From positions 5,333,673 to 5,397,672 of the forward strand of contig OX359197.1 of the NCBI GenBank assembly GCA_947172415.1: 64,000 bases of DNA, read 5' to 3'. The DNA comes from Chondrosia reniformis. Its lineage: Eukaryota; Porifera; Demospongiae; Chondrillida; Chondrillidae. This document shows, in pieces, positions 16,314-41,913 of this stretch. Made by a program: the position numbers and the translations under genes. How positions within the stretch are numbered: position 1 is the stretch's first letter; every line of letters begins with the position of its first letter. The notes beneath the pieces were generated by a model. That model was not told the DNA's origin. It made no database searches and saw nothing but the letters and a program-made list of their open reading frames with translations.

Positions 16314-16523
16314 TCCCTTGACTTCTGTCCCCCAGGGTAGATGTCCCTTTACTTCTGTCCCCCAGGGTAGATGTCCCTTGACTTCTGTCCCCCAGGGTAG
16401 ATGTCCCTTGACTTCTGTCTCCCAGGGTAGATGTCCCTTTACTTCTGTCCCCCAGGGTAGATGTCCCCTTACTTCTGTCCCCCAGGGTAGATGTCCCTTT
16501 ACTTCTGTCCCCCAGGGTAGATA
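16314..16523. repeat. 30-bp minisatellite, seven units
   Basis: Seven almost identical 30-bp units containing ACTTCTGTCCCCCAGGGTAG. Because 30 is divisible by three, both strands stay open through the array, which creates spurious repeat proteins (minus-strand decapeptide GTEVKGHLPW). It lies just upstream of the first coding exon of the large kinase gene. Confidence 0.95.
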
Positions 16524-17016: not shown

Positions 17017-18474
17017 ATGCCTTTGAATAAGAGCAGGTCTGGTCTTACAGCCCAGAACGAGGAATCCATTTTGAGACAGGGGGCATTCACTGTGATAAAG
17101 ATAAAGCGCGGAGGAAAGCTCTTTTCCAGAGGGCAGGTTAGTCAACAGCCATACGTAACTACCTATTTTATGGTCACTGTGATTCAAGATTAGATTATGA
17201 ACAAACTTATCAATTCAACGTTGACAGTATGGTTTCTTAAAATTTAATATGTCTGTGTACTATGTGTACGGAGCTGTGACAGTCTGAATGTACACACATT
17301 CATATAAGTACTCCTCTATAATAGCTTGTGCAAACTTATACAATACCGTAATTTGATATATTCTTTATGCAACATAAGCATGTATTGCTGTACATGGGGA
17401 TAACCTCTTAATTACTAGCCATGAGAGTTGTTATGTATATATTTACTAAAAGAGTAGTGCTGAGGTCCAAGAATGCTCTAAGGTATCTTAATCTTGGTTT
17501 ACTTAGAAGCAATTTGTTTTTTGTTTGCTTGTAAACAGACCACAGCAGTGGGACAGCATTGATAAACTTGTTTGTACCTAATAGTAGTCTGTAATTAAGA
17601 AGCATGAGAACCAGGAAGTTGTTAACGTACTAGATGAACCTATCAATGTAGCAATACTTACACCGATGGGAGTACGTAGGTAGTACATAGGTGGTGCACT
17701 AGCTTGTATGGTTGTACTCTGTTTTCCTACTTGTTGACTTTGGTCCAGTTGCTCTAGCTAATTTTCTCCTTTCCTCTTTAGGAAACTGAAGAGATCATCA
17801 AATCATGGGTAGTACTTAGGAAGTGTTCAGGTACCGATGGCGCTGACTTGTGTTTCTATGGCAACCAAAAGTGTACCGAAAAAGCTATGAAACCCATCCA
17901 CTTGACAGAAGGAAAGCGTCACCACGGTGTGGCAGTGTATCGAGTATCTGGAAATCCCAGCTATCCTCACATGTTCTCTCTCAAGTTAAAGGATAAAAGA
18001 GTAAACTTTATTGCCTCTGCCAAGTAAGTTACTGACTTCCTTCAACCCTAATCCACTGCACATATTATACATACATACATAGGTGAATTATCTAATATAC
18101 CATTTTCCTACATGCTATATGCCTATTCTGTAAAAAAACCCTATAGGGGAACTAAACCTGAAGAGAGCTTTGGATGAAGATATAAGAGTCTTTTCTTTCT
18201 TCTTTTCCTTCTTTCATCTTCTTCTCCTTTCTTCTTGTGTATGTCTTACAGCACATTGCCTTATCAATCCAATATAGCTGTCTTTATAGATTATCCTCAT
18301 TATAACTACTATATGTAGTTACTGAGTCGGGTGTCTGATAATTAGATTTTCCAAAACTTGCCATAAATACGTAGTATTACTGTTCATATTTATTATGTAT
18401 TTTACAGGAGTGAGGTATTTAACTGGCTGACTGACATTACAAATTTAATCAAAGTCAACTACAAAATTGAAAAG
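17017..18474 (+). CDS. Exons 1-3: PH domain
   Basis: Exons 17017-17136, 17782-18023 and 18408-18474 encode a PH fold: first strands with FTVIKIKRGGKLFSRG, then KSWVVLRKCSG and LCFYGNQK, a middle part with YPHMFSLKLKDKRVNFIASA, and the closing helix SEVFNWLTDITNLI with the invariant tryptophan of PH domains. The basic KIKRGGK turn is where phosphoinositide-binding PH domains hold their lipid contacts, so membrane binding is plausible. Phases 0, 2 and 0 join exactly to the WWE exon. Confidence 0.8.
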
Positions 18475-21400
18475 GTACGTACGTACGTACATTGTAGTAC
18501 AATAAGCAATTAGAAAACTAATAACATTGTAAAACATAACTTACGTACGTAAGGGAAACCACAATCTATTTCTTCATATGATGTACATACGTACATATTC
18601 ATATATACCTAATGAGGTTTTAAACTGCATATTTATCTTATCAATCATGTACTAGTTCAATGATAGTAAGATGTACGTATGAATAAAACATATGTACGTA
18701 CATATAGTTTGATAAAACCATTTCAGTACAGGTCTGGTGACTGTAACATTACAATGAACCTTAGCCTAATAACTCAGTGTAAATTTGTAGATACATATGT
18801 ACATATAGATGCACGTATGTAGATTAAATGTAAATAGCGGATACTGAGATTGCCATACAATATAATTGAAGAAGGTTGAAAGTTCAGAACATCATGTTCC
18901 TGTAGTTTTAGAATATTCAGTTACTCTTTAGTTACAATTTTGTTGGATTTCCTGAACTCGGCCACTGTCAGACTGGTCTCCTACAACTCCATGCTCTTCA
19001 TGTGTAGGTGAGCTGGGAGTGGTGCGATGAGAATGGGGTGTGGCATGCATTTCCAGAGGATGCCAACATCACCTTGGAGAACCACTTTGAGAAGAAGCAG
19101 TTTCATTTCTCTCTGGGTGACCCTCAACTGACCTACCAGTTCAATCTCTCTTCTCTGACAAGAATGCACCCTCGCACAAAGAAGTCGCAAAAACTGAGAA
19201 GACATGTCATTCTTTGGGAGTTGCCTGAAGGTGTGAATGGCCTATGTGTACAGTACTACTGTACGTACGTGTGATACTGTATATGACAGGCTTATGCAGT
19301 CACGTAGATGCACTGAACTGTACATACGTATGGTGCTTGCTGTATAGTAATATTTCTGTAATGTACATACTGTAATACTGATAAGGAGACCATCTCCAGT
19401 GATTGGTAAATGTCCTTTTCACCATGGCAGATCCTGTACAAGCTTAACAGTATTCTTATCCTTGGTGTTTTGGTCTCCTAATTCTCATGAGTCTAACTTG
19501 TTATACTGTGTATGGTTCCTTAGCTTCTTTTGCTTGATAACCATGGTGATTAGATTACTCTTGTACATGTCCTTGACTATACACAATGTCCTACATTGTT
19601 TATTACTTACGTATGTACCATATAGATTGTCTTTTAATTGCAAACACTAAACAATTGCAAATTGCAAAATTTTAAAAATTCGCAAAAAAAATAAAAAATA
19701 TCATCTATTTATTAACGTTTAGTGATCACGTTTACATTTTATAATATCATTGACGACCCATGAATTATTCGTGTGAAAGGAGTCTGTAGATGCCCGTCGA
19801 ATACAAGAATGAGTCTTGATCGCTTCTTTAAGCCATTGCAGCTGCCAATGCTTACAGCACAAGAATCAGGCCTCTCACTGAGAGAAGCAGAAAAGGCTAG
19901 CAAAGCCATGAAGAAAGTGACATTACTAAATACTAGTAAAGAGGACAATAAGCGAAAAAGGAAGTAAACTACTACTTTTACTGCTGAGCATGTATAGGTA
20001 GATACGTACACAATCTTAATTAAAAGGCAATCTATGGTATATACAGTAAGTTACATACGTATGTTGGCATGAGAGTGTCTATAATATGTGTCCCTTTATT
20101 CTGCAGTTGTCAGAGAAAGATCCAAGGATTTGCCAGTAAGGCTCGGCTATGTGTGACTATTCAGCTGATTACTTATGTCATGCTGGGTATTGTTGACTTT
20201 GTGTCCCAACTCTTTGACCGAGTTATTCAACATACGTACAAGTATAGTGCACCCCTATAATATAGTTTCACTTTCATGGGGTATGATTCCAAGATATTCA
20301 AGGCATTTACTTCCAACTGTAGATTTGGTCTATACTTTATGCTGTATATCATAACGATTCTTTTCTAACATAGCATAGATCCGTTCTTCTGCTTCCTACT
20401 GAACTCGTATGTACATATAATTATTCTTTCTATTCCGACAGGCAATATGGGAGTGGCTTAATTGGGAGGGGGAGTGGTATCCTTACCCACGCTCCATCAA
20501 CATGCAGATTGAGGAGCTGTTTAACTCAGAAGGGTCTAAATGGATGGAGGTGGTCCTTGATATGCCCACCCACACTACCGTACTGCTGGACCTGCATCAC
20601 CATCGCCAAGTCAATCTGAGCACAGGAGCAAGATGGCCGATCAGGAGACTGGAGATGGCAAAGCACTCCCGTAAGAATCGCTTCTTGTATATACTGTAAT
20701 AGACATGTGTATGTATGATATATGAAGTACATATGTTGATTGTGAGGTGATAACCAAACCACAACTATTCAAATCATTGAATTAGAAACAGAAAATGAAG
20801 CTGGTCAGGCCAAAGTACAAAGTACAAACGGGCAGTCCCTGACTGTACTCTGTGTGACCTACAAATTCATATGTCTGTATAGATAGCTAGAGGGAAGTGT
20901 CGTGTACCTAAATGTGACGTTTTTCTTAGTTCAAGTTTAATAGTAGTTGCTACGAAGCACTTAGGAAGACATTTTTGTCATTAACCTTATTATTTTAATA
21001 AAAGTGTTTGTGAAATTTGATTTTAACAGATACCTGTTGTGCGTACCACAGGTACGTAAGTAATTATACAAGAAGTATTATCTGAAATAATTATTCTAAA
21101 TATCAGGTCACTGTAAATATCAGGTCACTGTAAATATCAGATTGAATGAAGTGAAGTGAAGCTCCTCAGATCTTTTCACTTTTCATTACTATTATTATCA
21201 ATAATTGATTGTATGATTGCATAGTATGGTGTAATTAATTATTCTGTGGTTTTGATTAATTGGTTTCTTAACAGTATAAGCCTTTAGCACAAAACAAGTA
21301 ATTTGAATAAAAAAACTCATGGAGCTGCCCCTGTACTTGAATTACTTGGCAGCTTTGTTGGGTTTATGTATGTATGGTCGTAATCCTAACAGTTCTGACC

Positions 21401-24400
21401 CGCAAGTTTCATTAAGATTATAATGAATGGTAGAAAACGGAAACAAACTTAAAAAAGAACTTCCCAAATGCCACTATTTGCTAATATGTACATATAAATA
21501 TGGTATTATGATACTCGTGTATGAACCTGTAATATACGCATACATACGTATATTAGATTACTATGGTATTAATTTTATAACTTGCACTGTATACGTATAT
21601 GAAAAGTGAACAACGGGAAATAAGAAAGAAAACAATAACATACGTACATGTGATTTGATATTTCTAGCTCCATCTCTCTTTTAGCTAGTATCTGGGTGTG
21701 TATGTAAATGTATGCCAATTGTAAGATTTATTTTATGCCGTATTTGCGTGTGGTCTCCATATCTGTTGCATCAATATTCAGTTTATAAATGTGAAATCAG
21801 TATGATCAGATAATCAATTTAGTCCATTAGTGGTAAGGTGAATGATAAGGGACAATTTCCTGCATGCAGTTCATTCTTAGTTAAGCCACACTTCATATTG
21901 GTCTTCACTCATTCTTGTATTTGTCCCTATATGATGTATTAGTCCCTATATGATGTATTAGTCCCTATATGATGTATTAGTCCCTATATGATGTAGTAAT
22001 CCCTATGTGATGTATTATTCATTTTATGAAGTACAGTGTTTTTAGTAATTCTATGGTTGCTGTGTATATTGATTTGGGTAGTGGAAGTTTCTTAGAAAGT
22101 TTAATGCTATTAAGTATTTGAGAATTAATTTAGTTAGGGGGTCTTGCTAAGGATGCAGTGATCATTGGTTGTCCCATACTGATACGTATATATACATATT
22201 TCTTAGGAAATCCGGTCACTTTGTGATTACATAGTAAGTATTCTGAGAATACTTATAACCCTGGTTTGAGGGTGTCTGGGGATTCTTGGAAATTCAAATG
22301 CCAGAAGTGTTTTACTGAGTACCTACGTATGTAAACAATTAACTGGGTCCCTGACATACTGTATCTTGTTTGGCAGTATCTTGAGGATCAGGACTGCCCT
22401 TCTCAAACCATTCTGTAAAGCACATGTACATGTGTGTATGACACACGGTAACATTGCGAGCATCCTCAGAATTAGTGAACATGTCTAGCAATTATAGAAT
22501 TACTTAGTTAAGACCAGAATCCTGAAATCTATGAGATGTCACTCAAAATCATCTTTCTCCGCATATTGAATGATAATAGTGAATGGTGAGCGCCACCAGT
22601 AGAAATCACAGAAAATGGCCTCCAATAGAAACCGACTTTTTCTTAGCAAATGTCTTTATGGCCCTTAGAGAATGTTTGTACCAAGTTTGAATGAAATCTC
22701 TTTTTTTACAAAGGAGATGTGGTTGATTAAAATTATACCATATCCATTTTTACCATATCAAAAATATATGACAACCATTTTTCCATAAATACCTGAGGCC
22801 ATTTTCTGCGATTCCTACTGGCGGCACTCACATATTGTGTTAGTATTCTGAATTAGGCCTGGCATCTGCCAAGAATTCTTGTCTTACTTTGGGTTTGACT
22901 TTTTGCTAAAATTTGTGCATCCAATTTGTATTTTTTATTGCAGAATCAGTTCCTTAATATTATATGATTGTTTAATTAATCAATACTTTTGGTTGGGATT
23001 ATTAATGTATCCATTACTATCCTATAGATCATTATGTAGCTAATGTGAAGGAGTGAAATCTAAATATTGTATATGTATATTGCTAACCGCATGTACTCCT
23101 CCATTCAATCGGGATTTATCACCTTCTGTTCAGCCGATTGATATACTGATGTATTGATTTCTGAAAATATATATAATTGATATCTTAATTGCAATTGATA
23201 TGATATGAATGATCTCCTCCACAAGTAGCTATTGTCACACTCAAGTTGCTATATATAGAATGAGATAGGTATACATTTCACTATCTCAAGCTGCATAGGT
23301 ATTATATTCCCAATGTGGTCAAATGAATTGTTTGCTTTAGCATACTTAATGTGGCATGCAGAGGACCTTTTCATCCCTGTGACTTAGTGAGCTCTGACAG
23401 CACAGACAAGCTACTCTCTCTCTCTCTGCACACTTTGGAGATCTTCTTCAGATAGTTAGCTATGTACAGATAGTTAGCTATGAACAGATAGTTAGCTATG
23501 TACAGATAGTTAGCTATGTACAGATAGTTAGCTATGAACAGATAGTTAGCTATGTACAGATAGTTAGCTATGTACAGATAGTTAGCTATGTACAGATAGT
23601 TAGCTATGTACAGATAGTTAGCTATGTACAGATAGTTAGCTATGTACAGATAGTTAGCTATGTACAGATAGTTAGCTATGTACAGATAGTTAGCTATGTA
23701 CAGATAGTTAGCTATGTACAGATAGTTAGCTATGTACAGATAGTTAGCTATGTACAGATAGTTAGCTGTGTACAGATAGTTAGCTATGTACAGATAGTTA
23801 GCTGTGTACAGATGTAGTCAGCCAGTTAGCTGGCATTTCCAGGTTTCCAGGAATGTCTTTATCTAGTGTTACCAGCCCTGCTATTGTTTGAGTGTGGGTC
23901 ACTGCTGGTAACAAGGCGCTCACCCTACAAGGTCACTGGTGTGGCCTGATGTTGGGGATGGCTGTGGTTGGTGGTAATGTGTAGGTGTCAAACTGTCTCA
24001 ACAGATGAATCCCTACACATGCAACATGTGACATACTGACCTTATATATAGTACTGACCATATAGTGCAGTGGCGCCAAATAGTTGATACTGTAAATACA
24101 ATACATATCTATTGTGATAGAATTCATTACCAAATTCCCTAAGGGGAAATTCATTTGATGCAATTTAGATATTAATTAGAGTTACATTTGAAGATATAAA
24201 TGAGAGAGTTGTAGATTTTTCATTGACTGAAGAGCAGTCTTGGAAAGGGGTAATTCCTTCAATGTATAATACTCCGTATTTCTTACATGCTACATCTACT
24301 TTAGAATAAAGGATTATAGGGAACTGAAGGGAACTAAACCTAGTGAGAACTTTGGAAGGGTTTTCTCCTACTTTCCTCTTCTCCACTGGCTATGTACTGT

Positions 24401-27400
24401 ATGTAGACAGTTATTTAGTATGTGTATGTAGTGCATGGCTATTCCTAAGGAGAAGCTGTATTATGGGACCATTAGCCACTTAACAAGCAGGAAACCACAG
24501 ACTAACCAACTTATTAGGCAGCTGGCAAAGGTCACAGAAGACTCAGCCATATGTGCTATTTAGAGCTATGACATATTCAGTGACACCCAAATGAGGAGAT
24601 TGAATTTCACTCCCCTTTCAATATATTAAGAGGTTGTGTTTCATGTGACTCCCCTAAGTTGTTTTATTTCACTTGCAATTCTATTTTATCATATGGGTAT
24701 GTTAATAAGTGAACACAATGACACATCCTTTCCATTGCAATTGATGAGATGAAATGATGACCTTATTCATACATATGAACCTCTACTTCACATGTGTACA
24801 TTCTATATATATACGTCCTTAAATATACATATATACTTACACATTTGTACTTGCTTTATATATATTGTATATATGCACATGTTGATTGCACTGAAATACA
24901 TAGTTCAAAGGGGCTGTGATCTGATAGAAATAATCACTGTGTATATATGTATACGTATGTATATACATGTACAATATACGTAGGTCAAGGTGTCCAATTC
25001 ATTGGGATTTTATTGCTGATAACCTAAAAATAGGCATTGCTTAGGAATGGGACTATTTGCCTCCAATTGTAATAGCAAATAAACATATTGAACTACATAC
25101 AGTAGGTTGCCCCTTCAAAGCCCCCCAACCACCTTTGTGATATTTTCTAAAAGAAGCCTTTTAAATATGTTTCTATTATTATACATACCTTTGTACCTTG
25201 AAAGAAGATACAGTTTAAACATTTGTTCTTTTCATGTATACTCATTAATCACACTAATCAAGCTCTGTGGCACAGAGGTAAAGACTATTTCTTTATTTGG
25301 TTGAGTTAATTTAAAACATACTGTAAGTAATTTTCATTTTACTGTCAATTAGTGGTCTAAGAATGTTATTGTATTTCTCCAATGTATATACACATGCAAA
25401 GTCTTATAGCATCAATGTTATAGTATCAGTATGTATGGTGGCTGCCTCTAAACCAAAGTACCCATTGAAGCATCAACACTTCTTACTCCTCGGTTATAAT
25501 ATGTGTTTTATCATTTGACTCTTGATATACCCCAACCCCACTCATGTCTCCTGAGGAGTGCAATGAGCTAATGGTGCACTTGATGGGAACCAGAGTCTCC
25601 CCTTAGCCACTTAAAAAGATGGCCGAACCATAGACAGCTGGTTTATCCCTTTCGAGGTGTGGGTAAAAGTCAAATAAGGATGATAATTAAGTTGAGTACT
25701 TCGGATCCTAAATTCCCCCATTTTTCATTATGCTGTATGTTCAGCATAGCTTAATCATACTGAGCAGGGCACTTGCTACATCAGACATGTATTTTACTTC
25801 TTTTAAGCAGTCCCTAATTGACTAATGATGTGTTCCCAAGCAATTAGGTGTTCAGGTAGTTTTCTAAAGGTTCTAACCGCTAAAATACACTCCCACTAAT
25901 ACATACAGCTGTATAATGTACATAATTAGCATACATACTTCCTAATGTTCAGTATGTATTTCTGTATTACTTATTGAGACTAATGATATCACACTGTTGC
26001 TTTATAGAAGATTTAGTTTACTGATTATTATGGCTGTCTAGTGAATGTCACTTGTATGTTACTAAGCAGTGTTTCTGCTACAAGTCTGAAAGTGCACTTG
26101 TTACTAAACACCACATGTACAGAAGATTTGCAAGTATACTATAGGAGTGGACTGTATAGGAGTGTAGATATAATGTATTTATGCAGTGTTTCTATATTAA
26201 TTAGTGGATGCAACATAAAATTTGCATGATAATGTTGCTAATTTACCTAATCTCAGTATAAACAAGTGATGATAAGTGTAATCTATGTCCTACATTTACA
26301 TACCTATACAGTTCCAAAATGAAATCCTATAACAGCTTTAGGGTGTAGTTGCTATCAAACACTTGCTATGGCTTGCGCAATAGGGCTTCCTATTTTCTTA
26401 TTCAAGATTTAATATTGTTCCTTAGCTAATATTTCCATATAAATGGCTATCACATTTCCTGCTTATGTAATATATATCTGGAACCTACAACATAAGGTAT
26501 TTCATATTAATGGTGCTAAGTAGAGAGCTAACTTTGACAGTTTTAAATACTGAATACTGCTATAAATTGAAGAGGAGTTGCCTGGAGGTCTGGCCTCTTG
26601 CTAAAGAAGATTTCAGAGAGAAACCAATTTACTGAGTCACAGACTTTGTACTGTAGTGAGGAGGAGTTTAGCTAAAGCTTTTCAAGTGCCTTTACTTGGT
26701 TGTATAAAAATGTCTATTGTTGTTGAGCCATCAACAGCCTGTGAGTGTCCTGAACCAGCTGAAAGTATCATTTCAGAAAATAGTTCAGGTTTTTACGAGG
26801 AAGATCCTGAAACTGACACAGAAAGCCATTGTTCAGGTGAAGGTCTTGCCAATGTCTGTCCTCTGAGAGCTTAGCACCATTGAAATTGTATGTACTCACC
26901 ATACAAGCCTTCTTTTGAATAAGTGCAATTGCTAGCATATGTATTTTATGTAGTCTAAGTCTTAGGAATTTATTCAACAAGTTATTCAGAATAGTGCTTA
27001 TACGTACATAGCTACCAATACACAAATCACTATGCATACATAGCTCTGAATAGGAGGACTAGTCATTTGAAAGTGTTAATTACTATAGCATTTATTGCTC
27101 AACTGCTCCACTGTACTGTCGAGGTTGGAGTTTCATCTCTGCTAATGTGTTCTCCATTCCATATCACCACTGAGTGGGATGGCATTCCTTCCATACAATC
27201 TGGTGTCAAGCAGACCTGTCTGCATGTGAATGTGGCGATAGCAGGTATCCCCTATCTGGAAGCCATAGTGTTTTGATTCAACCAAGGAGGAAAGTTATTT
27301 GTGGTCCTGACTTAATTATATGTTGGTTGATGGATTGACCAATCAAGCACCACCAAACCACTACATGATAACCTGTTAGCAATGATGCAGAAAATAAGTC

Positions 27401-30400
27401 TATTGTAGTTACAATTATATGTGGCACCACAGCCACACTTCAGAAGCTTCAGAATCTGATTATTGTTTCTACTTTAGAATAAGTAATAACTGTCAATCTT
27501 CACATTTTTCATTTTTATTTTTCTACATTCTCTAGTACCTTCAGCAAGCCTCATGCACCACTATGAAGTGTTGGAGGAAGATGTGAGTTTGAACCTTCTG
27601 TTTAATCCTACCTGATACCACCACATCTGGCTAGTGCTAACACAATTACATGTACCAGTCTCTCTATTCATTTATCTTGCCCTCGTTGAGGAAATATCAC
27701 ATTGACTTCAATTAGTAGAGTAACTTGACACTGTGAGAAAAGCGTAGATCCTGTTATTAATGTATGACCTTGAGGGATGAGTCCTTTTCAGTTGCCATTT
27801 GGTGATGATTTATAATAATATAAGTCACAGAGGTGTAAATAATATGGTCATTTTTGAAATTGTATACATACGTACATATGTCATTTTTAATGACTCTATT
27901 CCTAATTCAATTTTTAATTTTATAAGGTTGTACCATTAGTGATTATGATGTGATATGTGTAGATACAGTTATTGTATATTAAAAACAAATTGTACATTAA
28001 GTTTCAATTAACATATATTAGCCCTTCTTTAACAACATAGAAATAGACCACTATACCTGCGAGCAAACTAAATCTGATTAGTACATTATAATGAATATAT
28101 ACTGTAAATTATGTTTAAATGGCAGCCATAGAGGTGTATATTGACCTAGTACAGTGGAACTTTATGTATGTGTGAAATGTGAATGGTAGTGTGTGTTATT
28201 TTTGGGTTAACCTGACCTAGTACGTAGGTGAACGATTTCAAACATGGCTTTCTAAGTCATATATAGCATCTCAAATGGACATTTTCAGGTTTGTCAAATT
28301 AGAAGTAGCATTTACTGACAGATTTGGATTTTTCAATTACAAGATCTTCATCAGCAATGATCTTCATCAGCAATGATCACTCAGTGTCCAAGTCTACTCT
28401 GGCCCATAAAGTATATAACTTTTGTACGTATGTCTCCACTTTCTAGTTATTAAGTCCTCAAATGTTTTGCTCCTCAACATGTAGCATAGTAACTAACTAC
28501 TGCATAGTAAACATCCTTTATATTGCTGCTGTATCTGTTAGTTTGTAATTTAGCATTCTAGAACTTTCTGTAATGTATATATGCTATTGTACAGATCTTA
28601 ATAATTAATCTTTATCTGAAAATAACTCGGGTGTACGGTTAAGTAGTGTTACGACCATATATCTTGTCACAAACACACTAAATAGAATTCTCTTTTGCCT
28701 TTTAATTATGATGCCACTATTTTATAATCTAGCAGCTGCAAGTGGAACCAAGGAGATTTTTTTTATATAGTATTTGGTCATTCTGTGATCTGTGACATCA
28801 TAGCTAAGCTCATTTTTAGCATGTTTTGTATTCCATTATCCTATATCCTGGCAACTTGCATTCATTGGACTTCAATACCTACGTATGTATATATACATAA
28901 AGCTCCTTACTTCCTTAAATATTTTTAGTACATTACCATAAATGGAGCTGAATTGAATTGATTACAACTGAAAATGAAATCATTTCTTTGAACGAAGTGT
29001 AACTACCTCTATCTGTCCCTCATCCTGTCTGGGTTATGCAACCTGCTGTATTGTATTACAGACTGGTGAATTGTGTGTGTATGCTATTGTAACAGTTCTA
29101 GACATCTTGAATGACTAGGGGTCGTTGAACCATAAATACCCAACCACAGATTTGTATGTTTTTACTATGGTTAGTTGAACTGCATTGCCTTGCCATTAGC
29201 TATACATTATTGTTAGTAGTATTTTGGTTTACTGGATTAAATGAAGTAGTCAGATGTGTCTAATTCAATCTTCATTGCATTAGTAGGTTTTTAATATTGT
29301 ACATACGTTCGTACGCCAGCATATTTCAGTATTCCTATGGTGTTACGTACATTGCAGGAATTAGGGTAACTATTTATAGTAATGTTTTCATTGACTTTCA
29401 CCTTAACCCTATGAATATGTAGTCTGGTTGTAGTGGAATGTTATCAGAACTTCTATTTATGAATATGATGATTACACCTCTGCAATTATCAAAAGGTGTC
29501 AGTTCTATTTATTGATTCCATTCATTCTTCAAATAGGAGATGTAGCCATTGTTAAATTGTGCTATTTCATCATCACTATTTGGTGTAATAATTTGGATTG
29601 TCCAGCTTGCGAGCTGCCAATTTGATACACATTTGTTAATGATATGTTCCCAAGCAATCAAGCAATTAGGTGGTTTTATAGCTGTCATCCAGCTTTCTAA
29701 AGGTTCTAACCGCTAAAAGACACTCCCATTAATGCATACAGCTGTATAGTGTATATAATTAGCACATATATTTCCTAATTCTCAGTATATATTTCTGTAT
29801 TACTAATTGAGACTAATGATATCATAGTGTTGCTTTATAGAAGATTTAGTTTACTGATTAGTATGGCTGTCTAGTGAATGTCACTTGTATAATCTCTCCA
29901 AAGAATTTGTCGTTGAACTAAACTGTTTTAGCTGCCCGCCCCAAGTGTAGTTGTGTTGCTAAGCAACACATGCAACGAAATACATAAGTAGGAAATGGAG
30001 TCTTTGAAGTGTCAAAGGTTTTCTGTATTTGGTAATCCTACAGTGTAATACCTTACATTATGTTATACGTATATTTGTGTTTTTAAGTAGTTATATGTTA
30101 TTGTGCTATGATGATGGATGATTGGGAAGTGATTACTGGTTGCCTTTTTAATAGAACTTTGAGCCCCAGCCAAAATAAGACTTTGGTCACCTTGCTGATT
30201 CAGCATAGTAATTATTATTTTAATATTAATTTCTAAATTTTCATGTTACTAATGAATGTCAGTTAGAAGAATTAATAATGCAATGTGTATATTATTTACT
30301 CTCTACATACTGTTGTTTGTTTGTTTCTTTGTCGCTCACAGTCTGCTACTGTTGAAACTGATGATGAGGATGCCACGCCCACTGTTCAGAGCCAAACTGG

Positions 30401-33400
30401 CTCCCCCCGTTTCCAAGGTAACCGTGCTTTATGGTCTGAGGATTTCAAAAAGCTGCAATTAGACTTGAAGAAGTTACAGTTTCCTCGAGACAAGATTATA
30501 AAGTACTCACGAGAGCTGGGAGAAGGACAGTTTGGGAAGGTTAGTATGCAAGCTGCTTAACATTGCATAACACGCTGACCTGTTACAGAATAATAGAGTC
30601 AAGCTTTGTCCAATTCACTAATGCACATTCCTTCTTCTCACTGTTATATCCTAATAAGGAGATATGCCATCTTAAGTTGCAGTTTGACTGATTTAATGAT
30701 CTCTGATTAAGTTATCACCGCTCACCAGCGTTACTGTCATTGTTAGGTCTATCTATCAAGACCGTTTAATGAGATGTCTGTACCAATAAGTGGTAATGTA
30801 TGAGCTGTCCTAAGTGTTAAAGTTAGGCTGGTGGTCTAGTCGGGCTGCCCCTCCTCTGTGACTAGACAGTATAGGCCTTGTGTAGGCTGGGGCCTATGGT
30901 GATGCAGTGTTATTGTGGCCTTGTTTCAATTATAACTTGGACAGTTAGAAAATTAGTCAATACAAGTCTCTAAACTTGGTAAATGTAATTACAGTAGGTC
31001 TACCTTGGCCTCCGCCTTCACACCCCCATCCATCACTGTCCTTCCATTACTCTCCCTCAATCACACCCCCATCCATCACTGTCCTTCCATCACTCTCCCT
31101 CCATCACTGTCCTTCCATCACTCTCCCTCCATCACTGTCCTTCCATCACTCTCCCTCCATCACACCCCCATCCATCACTGTCCTTCCATCACTCTCCCTC
31201 CATCACTCTCCCTCCATCACTGTCCCTCCATCACTGTCCTTCCATCACTCTCCCTCCATCACACCCCCATCCATCACTGTCCTTCCATCACTCTCCCTCC
31301 ATCACTGTCCCTCCATCACTGTCCTTCCATCACTCTCCCTCCATCACACCCCCATCCATCACTGTTTCCTTCGTCACTATATTCTACCATTACTCTCTCT
31401 TTGTCATTCAACCCTCCATTTGGCTTCTATTATTGCTATGGTATTGCCCCTAAGCGGCGGATATACCTACACTGCACGTATGATGAGGGATCCATAGAAA
31501 ACACTTACGTATGTACTTGTGGTAGGTTTATTGCAATTATTCAGTCTGAATGCAATATAGCTACACAGTAACGGCATACCAGAGGGGCTTTGTGTACGTA
31601 TTGTATCAAAGGCTTCTAGCACCTCTCACCAAAAACTGATAAACAGGAAGGGCTTTCTCAGCCAGCATTCTGAGAATGTCTGTGATATTTTCCGAATGCT
31701 ATCATTGTGATTTCCAGTTTCCACAAGTTGAATAGCAGGAAATGTTTTCTAAAATAGCAACTCTATAGGAATATCACTTATTGTCACTTTTAAGACAAAG
31801 TGCATTTAAAGTGTGAAATATTTCTTTCCCTTAACAGTTATTACTTCAGTCAAACATACTGTAGCCACTCCGCAAAATATTATTTATATACAGCAAACTA
31901 CCCCATACAAGATGAGACCTCGATTCCTTGGGTGGTTTGGAGTAATAATTATATTCCAATGATTTTCCATAATATTGCATATTATCTGTTGGTTATAATC
32001 ACTTCAGGTCCACTTGGGAGAAGCTGTAGATATTCCTGGACTTGAGAACAAGGAGCCACTTCAAATTGCAGTAAAGCAACTTAGATGTGAGTATGAGAAT
32101 TGAGACTGAAATTGGAACTATACAGAGCTTGTTTCGTTGTGTCATTGTAACTGTCAGGAATTGACCCCATCTAGCTCTATTTTGGGGAAATATTGCAGTT
32201 TTTATGTACGTATGTACATTTATTTTACTAATTTTGATATTCCTTCTGTAGTGAGTGACAACCCGGGGCATCACACCCAACAAGTACTTGACTTCCTGAG
32301 AGAAGCTAGAGAGATGGCCAAATTCAGTCATCCAAGGATTGTCAAACTCTTGGCAGTTTGTACAGTGTACGTTTCATAGGCTGGTAATTTGTCTGTGAGA
32401 AGTGTGTTCCTCACTTTGAAGCATTCTAATTGACATCCTTTCTGTTAGTATTGATGTATTCACAGACAGTCTCTAATATTAACAATAGAAGGTGCTTGGC
32501 ACTTTCGTGTATTTACATTAATTATACTACATGTTAAGTATGCCCATATATGGTCATGCTAACTGGTGTAAGATGACTCATACTTATTTACTGCTCTATT
32601 ACAGGGACTACCCCTTAATGCTTCTAGTGGAATTTATGAATGAAGGGGACTTGCTTGGGGTTTTACAAGATTCTAGACCTTCAATGCCTCTCTTCCTCCA
32701 AATGAGATTTGCTAAAGAGGTAGCAGAAGGGATGATATACCTTTCAAGAGAAATGTGAGTGACAGTTAGGGATGTACATACATACAGTGAAACCTGTCTA
32801 ATGTGGTCAGCTTGGGGTCAGCTGAACTTGGCCTTTTTAGAGAGGTGGCTGCATTATAGATGTACAATCCATTATTCGTATATTCAATTTTTGCAACTGT
32901 AATTTAGAGGCAACTGCTCTATTCAGGTGACTGCCAACACAGGTTTTATTGTACACAGTATTGAGTAAATATACATACGTATATGTTCTTGAGACATTCA
33001 GTAGGTATCGCGTGGAATACGTAGCTTTGATTTGGTAACTTAATTTGTCAACTTATGTACTATGTTAAAATGATGTAGTTGCATTTATTATTATGTAATT
33101 GCCTATCAATCTGGTTTCAGTCTTATATAAGTCAGTTTATGGTTTTGGTATGGTCAGACGTTAGTTTACACATGCCTCTTTTCACTCTCAGGGACTGTGT
33201 ACATCGTGACATTGCAGCTCGTAACATTATGATCCACAAGGACAGCGAAGGAGAACAACATGCAAAGATTGCAGACTTTGGTCTATCAAGGTACGTATGT
33301 ACAACATGACAAATATTTCTTTGCTTTGTCTAATTAATCATCATTTACAGTCAGTTTCTAAGTTTAGTTTGGGGTTTTAAAATAGGATTCCTATTATATA

Positions 33401-35094
33401 CATATGTACGTACATGTACATTGATTATTATAATGTATGGTTCATAGTAATAGTGTGGTATAGTATGGTTATAAATATAGATTTTGAAGTGTAGGGATCC
33501 TTAAGTGAACCTTGAGGTCATAAATAGCAATCATTAACTTATATAGATAGGCTTTGTACTTAATGAATAATTCCCATGTGAAAGTCATCTATTTGTAACA
33601 AATAGTGTATTGGATTTGAAGTGTACATTATTTTAATTATTTAATATCACTGTTTATGTAGGCATGTCTATTCTGGTATATACGCACCAGCTACTGTTAA
33701 GAAGGCTCGACCACTGCCTGCTAAGTGGATGGCTCTGGAATCTCTGATGGACTTCATCTTCACTACTAAGTCAGATGTCTGGTGAGTGTAAATTTACCGT
33801 ATGGCCGGAAATTTTGGCAGAGAATTTATTTTGGTGGATTGGCGGTTTTGAGAGCAATCTGCCGATATTTCCATCGTCAGTCTACACTGAACATAGGAGA
33901 ATAACTGTCTTGTCCGTTAAATCCACCAAATACCATAATTCGAACAATCCACCAAACATTCTTCTCACCAAAATTTCCGGCCATATAGTAATTGCCTAAC
34001 TAGATTATTAGCAATAACCACTAATTGACTTATAGAATTTGCTTTATACTCTTATTTGATGCAGTGTTTAATTTTTATATGGGATACAAATGATAGATTT
34101 GAATTACTTTATGTGTTTGTTGTGTGTTTGCAGGAGTTTTGGTGTACTATTGTGGGAAATAATGACTTTGGGGCGTAACCCATACCCTGGTGTTGATAAC
34201 AGGGACTTACTCGAGCAAATTGAAGAGAAGGGGCTAAGGTTGAGCAAGTCAAAGACATGTCCTGATCCAGTGTAAGTTCACAATTGAGTAGTTTTGTATT
34301 TTGTATTTTAATTGCTAGTTTATAGAGTTGCTTACTGTGTACATGTCTAAATGAATTAAGTCTTCACTTTTAGCTTAAGTGATGTAAATAGTGCAGGACA
34401 GTGTAGAAGTGTTTGGTTAAATGAGCTCTCATCTTTGGTATAGTTTTGACGTAGTCTCAAGATGTACAGAACATGATCCAAAGAAGCGTCCTACTTTTGA
34501 AGAACTTTTTGCTCTTTGTGTAAGTAGTCTTATTTGCAGCATTCACATATTTAGTCCTTCATTTTTTTGTTAAAGATTATAAAATTACTAAATAGCTATG
34601 TTTTTATACACTACATTTGAGGTCTAATATCGTATTCCTGATATCTTGTTCATTAGAAACAATTTGAGAAAGATGCCATAGATGGAAAACTGACTCACAA
34701 AGTAATTTCCACTGATAGGCTTTCCTCTGGTGCAACCAGTGACAGTGGAAGCAAGCACGAGTCTGGTTGTTGTCACTGTTCTAATGGGACCACTACAGAA
34801 GTCAGTAGAAGTGAAAGTGGAAATAATGTTGACAGTAAAAGTGGAAACGAGGAAAACAACTCTGGTGACCTTCGAAATAGTCTACCACTGGCACAGCAGT
34901 TGAGTGGAAGTGATACAAGTAACAGTCGACAGGAAGTGACAATAACTGTTCAAGATGGTGAAACAGAAGAATTGTGCACACTTCCTCCTCTGCAACCCAA
35001 CACTGTTTCTTCTAACCAAGAAAGTGTACTAAAACGAACTCTAAATAGCAATGGGACCATTAACACACCGTCATGTTCAGATGAAAAAAATTAG
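17017..35094 (+). CDS. PH - WWE - WWE - tyrosine kinase, 17-exon gene model
   Basis: I joined 17 exons whose donors, acceptors and phases agree: 17017-17136, 17782-18023, 18408-18474, 19008-19230, 20107-20135, 20442-20670, 26657-26836, 27536-27582, 30342-30539, 32008-32086, 32252-32366, 32605-32754, 33192-33290, 33662-33781, 34134-34271, 34444-34519, 34657-35094. They total 2550 nt, or 849 residues. Domains: PH about 18-137, WWE 145-208 and 229-299, acidic linker 304-430, tyrosine kinase 437-704, Ser/Asn-rich tail 705-849. No signal peptide or membrane segment is seen, so the protein is cytosolic. The weakest join is across the 6-kb intron 20671-26656; if it is wrong, there are two adjacent genes (PH-WWE-WWE and kinase). 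PH usually binds phosphoinositides and WWE binds iso-ADP-ribose of poly-ADP-ribose chains, so a PAR-responsive kinase is the inference. ATG 17017 is the first in-frame start after the acceptor at 16998. Confidence 0.75.
18088..18242 (+). repeat. Dispersed repeat family 1, copy 2
   Basis: It lies in the intron between PH exons 2 and 3, and aligns to the first ~155 bp of the copy at 15184 with few differences, ending in the pyrimidine-rich part. Confidence 0.75.
19008..19230 (+). CDS. Exon 4: first WWE domain
   Basis: The peptide starts VSWEWCDENGVWHAFPED and continues with the E.HF helix and LTYQFNLSSL, ending TKKSQKLRR. The two tryptophans, the glutamate in ITLENHF and the final basic RR are the named landmarks of the WWE family. 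The exon enters in phase 0 directly after PH exon 3 and leaves in phase 1. Confidence 0.85.
19773..19967 (+). other. Possible fragment of a transposase-type ORF
   Basis: A 63-codon open frame with MSLDRFFKPL, LSLREAEKASKAMKKV and a basic end (KEDNKRKRK) followed by TAA sits inside the intron between the WWE exons. Short C-terminal tails like this occur on pogo/Tigger-type transposases, but the family cannot be confirmed. It interrupts nothing, since it is intronic and has no splice signals. Flanking DNA at 19640-19740 is very AT-rich. Confidence 0.3.
20107..20670 (+). CDS. Exons 5-6: 29-nt microexon and second WWE domain
   Basis: Exon 5 (20107-20135) is only 29 nt, between CTTTATTCTGCAG and GTAAGG. 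It is needed to bring the frame from phase 1 to phase 0 and adds VVRERSKDLP. Exon 6 (20442-20670) starts AIWEWLNWEGEWYPYP and continues with the IEELF helix, VLLDLHHHRQVN and WPIRRLE, a full WWE domain. It leaves in phase 1 through CCC|GTAAGA. Confidence 0.8.
21922..22016. repeat. 19-bp tandem repeat
   Basis: About five units of GTCCCTATATGATGTATTA, drifting toward the right end. Confidence 0.9.
22586..22831. mobile_element. MITE-like element with 37-bp terminal inverted repeats
   Basis: The left end 22586-22622 (starts GTGAGCGCCACCAGTAGAAA) and the right end 22795-22831 are complements with about five mismatches over 37 bp. The 246-bp element has no ORF. No clean target-site duplication is visible, so the superfamily is unassigned. 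It lies in the large intron of the kinase gene. Confidence 0.75.
23449..23813. repeat. 18-bp minisatellite, about 20 units
   Basis: About 20 nearly perfect copies of CAGATAGTTAGCTATGTA; a few units carry GAACA or GTGTA variants. It is preceded by a CT-dinucleotide run. There is no spacer between units, so it is a plain tandem repeat. Confidence 0.95.
24278..24392 (+). repeat. Dispersed repeat family 1, copy 3
   Basis: A shorter, more diverged copy, recognised by TTTCTTACATGCTACAT, GGGAACTAAACCTAGTGAGA and the final pyrimidine block with CTTCTCCACTGG. Confidence 0.6.
24400..25810. other. Intronic DNA without recognisable features
   Basis: Part of the large intron. I see no exon or repeat beyond TATATACGTATGTATATACA-type simple sequence around 24930-24980. 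Confidence 0.4.
25818..26050 (+). repeat. Dispersed direct repeat, left member
   Basis: It matches 29645-29890 over about 240 bp with roughly 85-90 percent identity by eye (landmarks TTCTAAAGGTTCTAACCGCT, ATACAGCTGTATA, TGTCTAGTGAATGTCACTTG). Both lie in introns of the same gene. The shared ends suggest a transposed or duplicated element without coding capacity. Confidence 0.8.
26657..27582 (+). CDS. Exons 7-8: acidic linker
   Basis: Exon 7 (26657-26836) follows an acceptor ending TTTGTACTGTAG and enters in the phase left by the second WWE exon. It encodes RRSLAKAFQVPLLGCIK and then an acidic, Ser/Glu-rich part with PAESIISENSSGFYEEDPE. Exon 8 (27536-27582) is 47 nt long and adds VPSASLMHHYEVLEED. 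It leaves in phase 0 and joins exon 9 (SATVETDDED). The internal ATG at 26710 could serve as an alternative start for a kinase-only form; that is inference. Confidence 0.65.
27583..29640. other. Intron between linker exon 8 and kinase exon 9, left part
   Basis: Nothing beyond simple sequence, and a 16-bp tandem duplication GATCTTCATCAGCAAT near 28345-28378. Confidence 0.4.
29645..29890 (+). repeat. Dispersed direct repeat, right member
   Basis: Partner of 25818-26050; it carries an extra ~25 bp near its left end and is otherwise collinear. Confidence 0.8.
30342..34519 (+). CDS. Exons 9-16: tyrosine kinase domain
   Basis: All kinase landmarks are present. They are the glycine loop GEGQFGK (exon 9), IAVKQL with the ATP lysine (exon 10), FLREAREMAKFSHP with the helix-C glutamate and then VKLLAVC (exon 11), LLVEFMNEGDLLGVLQ (exon 12), the catalytic loop HRDIAARN and the metal site DFGLSR (exon 13), LPAKWMALESL with TTKSDVW (exon 14), SFGVLLWEIMTLGRNPYPG (exon 15) and CTEHDPKKRPTFEELF (exon 16). 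AARN in the catalytic loop and the PAKWMA motif mark a tyrosine rather than a serine/threonine kinase. The activation loop has two tyrosines (HVYSGIY). Nothing essential is missing, so the kinase should be active. Confidence 0.95.
31016..31365. repeat. Pyrimidine-rich minisatellite in a kinase intron
   Basis: Units of about 12-15 bp (CTCCATCACTCTCCCT and TTCCATCACTGTCC) are organised in longer blocks with CACACCCCCATCCATCACTG. The sequence is C- and T-rich on the plus strand. Two long plus-strand frames are open only because the unit lacks stops. Confidence 0.9.
32785..32951. mobile_element. Small TA-flanked inverted-repeat element
   Basis: The left end CAGTGAAACCTGTCTAAT and the right end ACAGGTTTTATTG are imperfect complements, and TA flanks both sides. 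CAGTG...CACTG-like termini with TA duplication fit a Tc1/mariner-pogo MITE, 167 bp, in the intron between kinase exons 12 and 13. Confidence 0.6.
33797..33988. mobile_element. 192-bp MITE with GGCCGGAAATTTTGG ends
   Basis: The terminal inverted repeats are CGTATGGCCGGAAATTTTGG on the left and its near-complement on the right (CCAAAATTTCCGGCCATATA), with inner CCACCAAA/TTTGGTGG also paired. TA flanks both sides. It starts only 15 bp after the donor of kinase exon 14. Its right end coincides with the left breakpoint of the duplication copied to 40507. Confidence 0.8.
34657..35094 (+). CDS. Exon 17: Ser/Asn-rich C-terminal tail
   Basis: The last exon runs 145 codons past the kinase domain. It is rich in Ser, Asn, Thr and Glu (SGATSDSGSKHESG, SRSESGNNVDSKSGNEEN), with one short Cys-His cluster ESGCCHCSNG, and no known domain. 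It is likely disordered. ATTAAA at 35325-35330 could serve as a polyadenylation signal. Confidence 0.9.
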   Translation, partial: KQFEKDAIDGKLTHKVISTDRLSSGATSDSGSKHESGCCHCSNGTTTEVSRSESGNNVDSKSGNEENNSGDLRNSLPLAQQLSGSDTSNSRQEVTITVQDGETEELCTLPPLQPNTVSSNQESVLKRTLNSNGTINTPSCSDEKN

Positions 35095-35737
35095 CTATTT
35101 TTATTTATGAGTATATATATACAATTAAAACTTTGTTTTTATCCTCTCACGTCAAAGTGGAGTCACTGTAATATATGTAAATGTTTCTTGTACTATGTAT
35201 ATGCTTTAATGTATTTTTATAAATTTGGTAAAAATTGTTAATGAAGATTGAAGTATATATAGTCCTTGTTAAGTAGCATGTACCCTATATGGCTATTACA
35301 ACACAGCTGTTTGACATGTTATGTATTAAACAATATTAGTCACTAGTACACAAATGTTAATATGCATGAAGAGAGGGAAGAACACGAAAGAAGCAAATTT
35401 GAATTAACTCATGCATACAAGATATGCGGCTGTGTTTTAAGCCACAGAACCAAATTTCAAAGGTCGTGCAGTTGTAGTGAATCTGATCAGGAGATAAGCT
35501 AAAGGAAACTTTGCAAAAGAATAAAGCGTCTGACTTGCAGAGGAAATAAGATGTTATCAAGTCGGAACTCAAAGTAGGAGAATGGACTTAATTGACATGT
35601 GTACGTACGTACTGTAGATATATAGACCTGAAGTATTACTCCGGATTACATTGGTCGAGTCTGCAGATTATACTCGGAAATCACTATCACGTGCACACTA
35701 CAGCTTAAGGAAAGGGCATACTGCTGTATCTTTGAAA

Positions 35738-36135
35738 ATGAGTTCTGAATCAACGGCCTTGTTAGCGGAAAACAAATCGGGAGAACAAGAGAAGAATTGT
35801 GCTTATGTTTCTCTGATGGCTTTCTCCATTTTCACTCTAATTGCCTGTTTTTGGCCCCTTGGTGCCCTCGGAATCCAATACACAAGAAAAGTTAGCGATT
35901 TAAATTTTTACATTTTTGAAGATTATACTTTTTCTCTTTCAGTTACAAATAGCACCAACCCTCCTTGTTTTTCCTTTTATTACAATAGTCCCATGGGCCA
36001 TATGCCAACCCTCTGTACAGGTGGAAGGCTCTTGCTGTTAATATAGCTGGAGTATTACTTGGAGTTGTAGTACTGGCTGGAGTTATTGTTCTAATTGTTT
36101 ACGAGGTCAAAGATGTTTCAGCAAACTATGCATAA
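35738..36135 (+). CDS. Dispanin / CD225 (IFITM-like) small membrane protein
   Basis: Two exons, 35738-35890 and 35989-36135, join in phase 0 (GTTAGC donor, TTACAATAG acceptor) to give 99 residues. The first hydrophobic segment CAYVSLMAFSIFTLIACFWP runs into LGALGIQYTRK. A polar loop SHGPYANPLYRWKALAVNIA leads to the second hydrophobic segment GVLLGVVVLAGVIVLIVYEV. A cysteine-proline first helix, a conserved loop with basic residues and a second helix is the CD225 plan; vertebrate IFITM proteins of this family restrict membrane fusion. The frame is open upstream to 35651, but ATG 35738 is the first methionine with a family-like N-terminus. A broken duplicate lies at 41914-42439. Confidence 0.8.
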
Positions 36136-36299
36136 CATATATATGTTTAACTTGGCCATCCAATCAATATACAATTGATAGTCTATTCTATACCGGACTG
36201 CTTATTATATGTTACAATAGTTGTCAATCAAACCACGAATTATCACAATCATATTAAAGGGAATATATATGCAAATTAAGGTAGAAATTACTGTATAGG

Positions 36300-36690
36300 A
36301 ATCGAATCACACAGCCATGTGGCCATCTTTCTGTTTGATAGAGTGACAGCCCTCAATGTACATTAATTCTGGTATACAAAGTTAATGTATGGTGAGAGAT
36401 AAAGCAAATTTTAAGTTCCATCAATATTTCAAACTCATTGTACATACTCTATAGGTGTCTGTGAATGCTGACACAAAGTATTAGCTTCATATCTTTCTGT
36501 TTGATAGAATGACAGCCCTCAATGTACAATAATTCCTGGTATACAAAACTTAATGTATAGTGAGAGATAGGGCAAATTTTAATTTCTTTCAAAATTTCAA
36601 AAACTAATCGGACATACTCTATAGGTGTCTGTGAATGCTTACAAAAAGGTTTAGCTTCATATCTCTCCATTTGATAGAGTTACAGAACTA
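36300..36690. repeat. ~170-bp satellite, first block
   Basis: Two to three monomers of about 170 bp. Landmarks are TGTCTGTGAATGCT, TTAGCTTCATATCT, GAGTGACAGCCCTCAATGTA, GGTATACAAAGTTAATGTAT and GAGAGATAGGGCAAAT. Confidence 0.9.
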
Positions 36691-37742
36691 CAATTAATGT
36701 GCTCTTTTTGTTAAAAGAAAATTGCGTAATACTATATATGGCCGACCGTTAGAAGGTATAATAATAATAATATAATAAAGACAGAAATTCCATACTATAT
36801 CTGAAAATCTAGAATACTTTCCAATTTTTTATACATATGGATATGCACTGTGTAGTATTTGATTGTTATTGAAGTACTATCTATCCACATATTTTATATG
36901 GATCTCGAAGTGAAATTTCGTCAATCGACAGCCAACGAAACTCTAAAGAAAAAAAGTTGGACCATACCGAACGCTACCATCCACGACGCTCATAGGCCGG
37001 GATCGGTGGTAACGCTCTGCCGAGTTGAGCTTTGGGTGTCACTTGCGTGAGAAGAACCAGTTCTTCTCGATATGGCCGACTCATATGAATCCTTAAAGAT
37101 ATCAGATGCCAATCCCACATTACGTGGAACCCCCCCGAAATCCGGATTATTGGTGAGCACGTCTCTATGGCACCAACCGATTAGGAGACAGCTTCAGAGT
37201 CTAAGCGCTACCAACCTCTATGGGAACCGCAACCACCATAGAGATGTGTCCAGGTAGGCCTACTATAGAAGGTTTTTCGCTTCTATTTATATGAAGTTTT
37301 GTCCAAAGAAAACGGTTGTGGTTGGGACCTTTTTTAATATATTTCTCGTTATTTCCAGATCAGTGAATTGCTTCAAGCAAGTTTAAAGACATAGGCAGTA
37401 TTAGTGGTTCACCTGAAAACTGGGAAAAGCGACAAAAACCTGTAAGTGTCTTGATGGGCCGAGGAGAACGACTTTTCTGATCCCAATTATTTTCGAGAAA
37501 TCGTCAATTTATTCCACTTTAATTCCAGACCAGTGAATTGTTCCAAGCAATTTTACACGCATACGCAGTATTTTCAATACATCTCAAAACTGTGACAAAT
37601 GGATAAAAGCCTGTATGTGTCTTGGTGGAGGGAGAAGAGCGACTTTTCATGATACAGAAAACTAGATATAGTGCGAGGTCCGATATTTATCGCCTGTACG
37701 ATATTAATGTCTATGATCGATATTTCAACTAAGCCGGTTTTA
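36690..37742. repeat. ~1.06-kb unit, copy 1, inserted in the satellite
   Basis: It is almost identical to 38672-39732. The left part holds a GC-richer stretch with short open frames (DAHRPGSVVTLCRVELWVSL; MADSYESLKISDANPTLRG). The right part holds two ~145-bp direct repeats beginning CCAGA.CAGTGAATTG. A GTAGGC site after CCAG (37252-37258) and CCAG sites before each repeat look like splice signals. I do not recognise the product. It could be a non-autonomous mobile element or a small gene duplicated with the satellite. Confidence 0.7.
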
Positions 37743-41541: not shown

Positions 41542-41913
41542 ATATGCATGAAGAGAGGGAAGAACACGAAAGAAGCAAATTTGAATTAAACCCATGCAAG
41601 ATATGCATGCGGCTGGTTTAAGCCACAGAACCAATTTCAAAGGTCGTGCAGTTGTAGTGAATCATGATCAGGAGATAAGCTAAAGGAAACTTTGCAAAAG
41701 AAAAACGCGTCTGACTTGCAGAGGAAATAAGATGTTATCAATCGGAACTCAAAGTAGGAGAATGGACTTAATTGACATGTGTACGTACGTACTGTAGATA
41801 TATAGACCTGAAGTATTACTCGGATTACCATGCTCGAGTCTGATTTTACTCGGAAATCACTATCACGTGCACACTACAGCTTAAGGAAAGGGAATACTGC
41901 TGCATCTTTGAAA

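Follow-up and report, generated by a model that had tools for sequence, protein, structure and literature searches.

A 64,000-nucleotide stretch of chromosome 9 of the sponge Chondrosia reniformis contains exons that, we conclude with moderate confidence, are joined in at least some transcripts to encode a single PH-WWE-WWE-kinase protein. This whole stretch, called the window below, corresponds to C9:5,333,673-5,397,672 in a genome of 117,379,552 bases and 15 contigs. The odChoReni1 assembly of this species is described as 117.37 Mb in 14 chromosomes plus a mitochondrion, with an N90 of 6,903,244 and a chromosome 9 of 7.7 Mb (PMC12181767). In the explanation that we favor, a single plus-strand gene extending from approximately 14.0 to 35.1 kb would make a cytosolic kinase composed of a PH-type domain, two WWE domains, an acidic linker, the kinase and a tail. 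The kinase, which resembles those of the insulin-receptor/ROS type, apparently no longer has a membrane anchor and has acquired an adaptor-like front end. The single protein hinges entirely on the approximately 6-kb intron 5.

Gene model and domain order

Sixteen plus-strand exons at positions 17017-35094 can be joined, with agreeing phases and no stop codon, into a model of 840 residues in which the PH-type domain, WWE, WWE, acidic linker, tyrosine kinase and tail follow in that order. An earlier note on this DNA had given 17 exons and 849 residues with consistent phases. The phases hold, but the supportable number is 16 exons and 840 residues, whereas the domain identities and their order are upheld and the kinase is intact. 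Codon scores in 13 of the 16 exons are matched by fewer than 5% of open intron stretches, and the remaining three are matched by 5.1, 8.3 and 8.3%.

Exon 1 (17017-17136), whose codon score is matched by 0.6% of open intron stretches, holds the start codon, the N-terminus and the start of the PH-type domain. The core and end of this domain are placed by the model and by an own-genome PH profile in exons 2 (17782-18023) and 3 (18408-18474), respectively. Exon 4 (19008-19232) encodes WWE1 and exon 5 (20442-20670) encodes WWE2, as indicated by Pfam and by alignment to DTX1 WWE2 in the first case and to DTX1 WWE1 and the TRIP12 WWE in the second. Beyond intron 5 (20671-26656; 5,986 bp), the acidic linker begins in exon 6 (26657-26836). 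It continues through exon 7 (27536-27582), which also accepts phase 1 and could be joined directly to exon 5, and into exon 8 (30342-30539), where the kinase glycine loop is found by Pfam and by alignment to ROS1. The ROS1 alignment also supports exons 9 (32008-32086; catalytic Lys459), 10 (32252-32366; helix C with Glu480), 12 (33192-33290; HRD and DFG motifs) and 13 (33662-33781; activation loop with Tyr587 and Tyr591). Placed by the model are exon 11 (32605-32754; hinge), exons 14 (34134-34271) and 15 (34444-34519), which encode the kinase C-lobe, and exon 16 (34657-35094), which encodes the tyrosine-free tail and the stop codon.

Upstream of the coding exons, a CpG-rich region at 13401-14801, with up to 21 CpG per 500 bp outside ACGT words, is the probable promoter, and the T-A skew changes from negative to positive at 14,001. 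The coincidence of this skew switch with a CpG-rich region suggests that skew and island together may mark transcription units here independently of any annotation.

A complete tyrosine kinase resembling those of receptors

The tyrosine kinase profile PF07714 matches residues 423-692 with an E-value of 3.6e-79 over profile positions 1-255 of 258, and all catalytic residues are intact, which bears out the tyrosine kinase of the earlier note. The catalytic elements comprise the glycine loop at 430, Lys459, Glu480, HRD at 555, DFG at 579 and ALE at 608, and the signatures of tyrosine kinases are present as HRDIAARN (with AAR), DFG and KWMALES (with the activation-loop Trp).

Among the best 60 of 863 PDB matches, the top one is an EGFR entry with two kinase copies, and the best single-kinase chain is ROS1 (7.1e-62), followed by an entry named 'tyrosine-protein kinase receptor', RET, ALK, MER and IGF1R. 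Identity to ROS1 amounts to 117 of 266 aligned residues (44%). The likeness to ROS1/Sevenless and insulin-receptor-like kinases extends to a similar stretch from the glycine loop to the catalytic Lys, and two of the three activation-loop tyrosines stand in the same places as in ROS1 (Y-x3-Y). As judged by kinase-domain similarity, therefore, the domain is of the insulin-receptor/ROS receptor type. However, the sponge model differs from these kinases in that it has no extracellular part, carries a PH-type domain and WWE domains instead, and ends in a tail without tyrosine. Its linker has tyrosines at 341 and 364. No segment of the 840-residue model is hydrophobic enough to be a membrane anchor, and the 19-residue maximum of 1.68 is located inside the kinase. 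Taken together, the receptor-type match and the lack of an anchor thus indicate a soluble kinase of receptor type.

When the kinase was compared with its own genome, the long matches outside the window reached 36-42% identity. The best of them come from 6.67-6.70 Mb of chromosome 9, in open reading frames (ORFs) that by eye have an SH2-like part. Short single-exon matches over the catalytic loop (e.g., C11:6370944) reach 47-55%, and a nearer, intron-split kinase paralogue is therefore possible.

Duplications and repeats around the kinase exons

A partial tandem duplication affects positions 33975-36315, where exons 14-16 and the beginning of the following reading frame lie, and its copy is located at 40512-42614, 6.5 kb downstream, with identities of 95, 90 and 86% (95% over the first kb). 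In the downstream copy, exon 14 is interrupted by an in-frame stop and the tail is shorter, and for these reasons this copy looks like a pseudogene fragment. Such a copy is what one might cite in favor of a decaying or mis-assembled locus, either a pseudogene or a collapsed duplication. We consider that reading highly improbable, since the main copy has an open frame in each of its 16 exons, with the codon scores described above for 13 of them, its catalytic residues are intact, and the broken copy is the downstream one.

Other repeats are also present in the window. Between the two copies, 36325-40507 is made of nested 145-170-bp tandem repeats, with 36332-38542 being approximately 87% identical to 38316-40507 and with CpG-rich pieces in both halves. 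Minisatellites occur at 23449-23813 (18-bp units), 16314-16522 (30-bp units) and 31029-31363 (14-bp units with a 99-bp higher order), which lie within introns 5 and 8 or immediately before the coding exons. A 200-bp repeat, possibly a small transposable element, is found at 25858-26057 in intron 5 and at 29691-29890 in intron 7, the two being 92% identical.

The N-terminal region as a probable divergent PH domain

The earlier note had proposed a search with WWE, PH and tyrosine kinase profiles. Pfam does find the WWE and kinase domains, but it finds no PH domain: residues 1-143 match no Pfam family at E-values up to 10, and when the raw genome was searched with PF00169, the PH-type exons were absent from the 109 matches. 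Eleven PH domains of this genome, however, were combined into a profile that scores 20.9 bits on residues 33-132 (profile positions 4-91 of 93), compared with 5.4 for the best of 200 shuffles. When the best look-alike is left out, the profile of the remaining 10 domains still gives 17.2 bits, compared with 4.7 for the best of 200 shuffles. We therefore accept the N-terminal region, on profile similarity, as a probable divergent PH domain, and the earlier assignment is supported in this form. The best single match among the 11 domains is a 524-residue ORF at C13:744577 (within C13:740500-748500, locus L052) that appears DOK-like by eye.

The phosphoinositide link that had been drawn from this domain fares less well. 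In many PH domains that bind phosphoinositides, a conserved Trp is preceded by basic residues. At that place, as judged by eye, the sponge domain has IIKSW, and phosphoinositide binding is accordingly doubtful.

Two WWE domains with incomplete ligand sites

The presence of two WWE domains is well supported. Pfam finds WWE in two stretches of the 840-residue model (E-value 6.2e-21), and a raw genome search with PF02825 recovers window positions 19011-19202 and 20445-20648 with 45.7 and 41.2 bits, both above the curated cut-off of 21.1. Among solved relatives, the pair is closest to DTX1 (2.2e-14), followed by TRIP12 (7.2e-4).

Whether these domains recognize ADP-ribose is more doubtful. In a study of WWE domains, the ligand is contacted by a stacking Trp, which is replaced by Tyr in RNF146, by a Gln at adenine, and by a Tyr and an Arg at the proximal phosphate (PMC11269756). 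On TRIP12 numbering, these positions are Trp 771, Tyr 809, Gln 818 and Arg 827, with Gln818 being placed by counting. At the Trp, Tyr, Gln and Arg positions, respectively, WWE1 has Trp, Tyr, Arg and Gln, and thus the adenine Gln and the phosphate Arg are missing. WWE2 has Trp, Val, Gln and Trp, which leaves it without the phosphate Tyr and Arg. Of the ligand residues, WWE2 retains Gln, Asn and Thr and WWE1 retains Tyr and Thr, and each of the two domains has the stacking Trp. The full Trp/Tyr/Gln/Arg set, which is present in three of three solved references, occurs in neither.

Such losses are not peculiar to this locus. We aligned 19 WWE matches outside the window, from at least 21 in the genome, and 6 of these 19 are near copies of each other. 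The full set is found in 5 of the 19, no residue stands at the Arg column in 2, and Gln is missing in 10. By this last count, loss of ligand residues is common among the paralogues. By eye, the WWE repertoire of the sponge (loci L001 to L006, L054, L055 and L057 to L063) includes an RNF146-like RING-WWE ORF, WWE-containing PARP-like ORFs, macrodomain-like WWE ORFs with near-identical copies on contigs C3 and C5, a triple-WWE ORF, and a tandem-WWE locus that may be Deltex.

The iso-ADP-ribose binding suggested in the earlier note is weakened by these observations, as each WWE domain keeps only part of the contact set, and canonical reading of poly-ADP-ribose (PAR) by either domain alone is therefore not expected. 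The fused gene could nevertheless be a PAR reader, a variant of the explanation that we favor in which the tandem WWE domains bind PAR as in Deltex and thereby direct tyrosine phosphorylation. The closeness of the pair to DTX1 supports this idea, given that DTX1 binds an 11-mer of PAR with a Kd of 0.34 uM according to the same study (PMC11269756), as do the residues kept in each domain and the RNF146-like and PARP-like ORFs seen by eye in the sponge, where some WWE domains have complete sets. Against it are the absence of the full set from both domains and the identity of the stacking residue, which is Trp here, whereas the iso-ADP-ribose preference of RNF146 is attributed to Tyr (PMC11269756). 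On balance, we regard a PAR-reading kinase as unlikely. A joint site or a weak site for ADP-ribose is conceivable, and the incomplete sites would favor either a protein ligand or a weak, two-domain reading of ADP-ribose.

Intron 5 and the proposed joining of exons 5 and 6

None of the other 14 introns comes close to intron 5 in length. If exon 5 is not joined across this intron, the same exons would belong to two neighboring plus-strand genes, one for a 303-residue PH-WWE-WWE adaptor and one for a 528-residue cytosolic ROS-like kinase that starts at the ATG at 26710. Exon 6 would then be the first coding exon of the kinase gene, whose promoter would be located somewhere in 20.2-26.7 kb. This is a serious alternative, to which we give somewhat less than an even chance.

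The acceptor at 26656/26657, by which exon 5 had been joined to exon 6 in the earlier note, is usable and in phase, and it is of middling quality (8.6% of AGs are as good with a matrix from 12 other introns). However, the 17 codons between this acceptor and the in-frame ATG at 26710 look non-coding. By rough likelihoods that are based on 12 introns and 17 codons, these codons are intron-like (likelihood ratio 0.05; among coding pieces, 0.1 to 0.3% score as low), whereas the 22 codons from the ATG on are coding-like (4.3). Because the preceding codons look non-coding, the kinase could start alone at this ATG, which has an A at -3. The fact that the coding signal begins here and not at the acceptor counts in favor of two genes, as this pattern is expected of a first coding exon.

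The end of exon 5 gives mixed signals. Unspliced, this exon runs into a stop after 26 nt and ends at 20699, yielding the 303-residue product that terminates in ...HSRKNRFLYIL just past WWE2. The donor CCC/GTAAGA is weak, with 41% of GTs in the window scoring as well with the matrix from 12 other introns, and an AATAAA is located at 20997, approximately 300 bp past exon 5. Both features are in keeping with two genes. On the other hand, GTAAG stands directly behind WWE2, where a spliced exon would need it but a last exon would not.

A fused product need not depend on the acceptor at 26656/26657, because the in-frame alternatives at 26737 (-0.5 bits) and 26776 (3.0 bits), as well as exon 7, fit the phase of exon 5. 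Between exon 5 and exon 7 there are 63 phase-compatible acceptor sites that score at least 2 bits. Among them, exon 6 has the best coding signal (10.1 bits), then a shortened form of it (7.6 bits) and exon 7 (3.8 bits), followed by a short candidate at 23387 (2.8 bits). The first place of exon 6 is due in large part to the codons after its ATG. Intron 5 itself contains no strong coding-like exon of matching phase and no strong candidate for a terminal exon. The latter weighs against two genes, though an unspliced end at 20699 requires no such exon.

A separate kinase gene would also need its own start. The window has 11 listed CpG-rich regions (at least 10 CpG per 500 bp outside ACGT words), none of which lies at 20.8-30.3 kb, and this speaks against two genes. 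In the 1.6 kb before exon 6, CpG reaches at most 5 per 500 bp with ACGT words excluded. For comparison, we picked by hand, from 152 Ras-family matches, 10 start regions (9 of which are single starts and were counted) and 11 introns between neighboring matches. At least 13 CpG per 500 bp are present at 6 of the 9 starts and 8, 5 and 2 at the other three, such that 2 of 9 have no more than 5 and 3 of 9 no more than 8. The divergent Ras pair at L068, which was kept out of these counts, has 16. With ACGT words included, the CpG ratio before exon 6 is 0.30, lower than at all nine Ras starts. However, these words account for 168 of the 734 CpG in the window and blur CpG islands, and the test is less clear-cut when redone without them, as 2 of the 9 starts are then as low.

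Some CpG features do favor two genes, namely a minor CpG-rich region over exon 5 at 20.2-20.8 kb (11 CpG per 500 bp) and a locally raised CpG ratio at 21.4-21.8 kb (10 CpG, 3 of them ACGT). Further minor regions, which likewise count against a single unit, occur inside the gene at 30.3-30.8 and 33.5-34.2 kb (10 CpG per 500 bp each), and another CpG-rich region at 35.3-36.0 kb marks the start of another plus-strand reading frame.

The T-A skew, in contrast, is that expected of an intron across most of intron 5. All 14 of the 1-kb bins up to 14 kb have a negative value and all 21 of those at 14-35 kb a positive one, whereas T exceeds A in 13 of the 29 bins beyond 35 kb. Intron 5 as a whole has a skew of +0.061, and none of the 155 pieces of 5.9 kb taken with overlap from the rest of the window reaches this value. 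The coding strand is T-rich in 11 of 11 of the hand-picked Ras introns (pooled skew +0.057), and the nine Ras upstream regions have a mean skew of 0.000 (SD 0.086 per kb). This intron-like skew is evidence against two genes. Nevertheless, it is positive in only five of the six one-kb pieces of intron 5, and its absence from the first (20.7-21.7 kb; -0.012) is a point in their favor. The best T-rich segment of the window runs from 14,001 to 60,000, overshooting 35 kb, and skew therefore marks the start of a unit better than its end.

Finally, the genome mean of 7.2 exons per transcript, as given in the assembly report, is closer to two smaller genes than to one 16-exon gene (PMC12181767). A gene with both long and kinase-only products, the latter starting at the ATG at 26710, would fit most of these observations. 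We count this arrangement within the fused reading, and we infer on these grounds that exon 5 is probably joined to exon 6 in at least some of the transcripts.

Relationship to known proteins

The arrangement PH-WWE-WWE-kinase was, to our knowledge, not known before. Familiar cytosolic tyrosine kinases have SH2, SH3, PH and FERM accessory domains, and the sponge protein would be a variant of this theme whose combination is unusual if it is encoded by one gene. Part of the diversification of tyrosine kinases around the origin of animals came from swaps of accessory domains, according to an analysis of the holozoan tyrosine kinome (PMC8662651), and a search of that text for the term 'WWE' gave no hit. 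More broadly, the open-licence literature on WWE domains and tyrosine kinases, sponges, choanoflagellates and domain architecture, to the extent that its text is accessible, yielded no WWE-bearing tyrosine kinase. The earlier suggestion that a tyrosine kinase with tandem WWE domains is undescribed is thus not contradicted by this literature.

Searches for relatives gave little beyond the locus itself. The first 405 residues have 11 matches in the sponge genome. Eight of these are at this locus, and the other three (two WWE and one PH) are weak. A scan of GTDB contigs with 707 of the 840 residues found no relative. A candidate second WWE-kinase gene on contig C2 was rejected, as its RNF146-like WWE (7.971 Mb) and its kinase (7.961 Mb) look separate by eye.

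Among known systems, the Tec family (PH-SH3-SH2-kinase) resembles the sponge model in having an N-terminal PH-type domain and a C-terminal tyrosine kinase in one cytosolic chain, and its N-terminal PH domain is noted in PMC8662651. We nevertheless rejected a Tec assignment, because SH3 and SH2 are absent from the five Pfam families found and no Tec chain is present among the best 60 of 863 PDB matches. Furthermore, the PH-type domain has its best own-genome match in the DOK-like ORF described above. Deltex proteins (DTX1/2/4) share the tandem WWE arrangement and provide the best solved match, but Pfam finds neither a RING nor a Deltex C-terminal domain in the sponge model, and its ligand set is incomplete. 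ASK3 is a kinase reported to be governed by PAR, although it is said to bind PAR via a basic motif and not via a WWE domain (PMC7921423).

Proposed mechanism and implications

In the single-gene explanation, the PH-WWE-WWE front end might gather the kinase on a clustered binding partner. By analogy with ROS and insulin-receptor kinases, we infer that the crowded kinases would phosphorylate each other in trans on the activation-loop residues Tyr587 and Tyr591 and thereby be switched on. The linker tyrosines at 341 and 364 may then recruit SH2 or PTB proteins. Candidates for the partner include a protein surface or an ADP-ribosylated protein that is read jointly by the two half-complete WWE pockets. 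Perhaps one pocket, with its adenine Gln, and the other, with its phosphate Tyr, act together on one PAR chain, such that, in an early animal, ADP-ribosylation would directly gate tyrosine phosphorylation by a single protein. We consider this specific proposal quite unlikely.

If the exons instead belong to two genes, then an adjacent PH-WWE-WWE adaptor and a soluble ROS-like kinase would each be unusual. If the fusion is true, a receptor-class kinase would have been turned into a cytosolic one. We know of no earlier direct, one-chain link between the ADP-ribosylation system and phosphotyrosine signaling, and a WWE-bearing kinase, if true, would be the first such link as far as we know.
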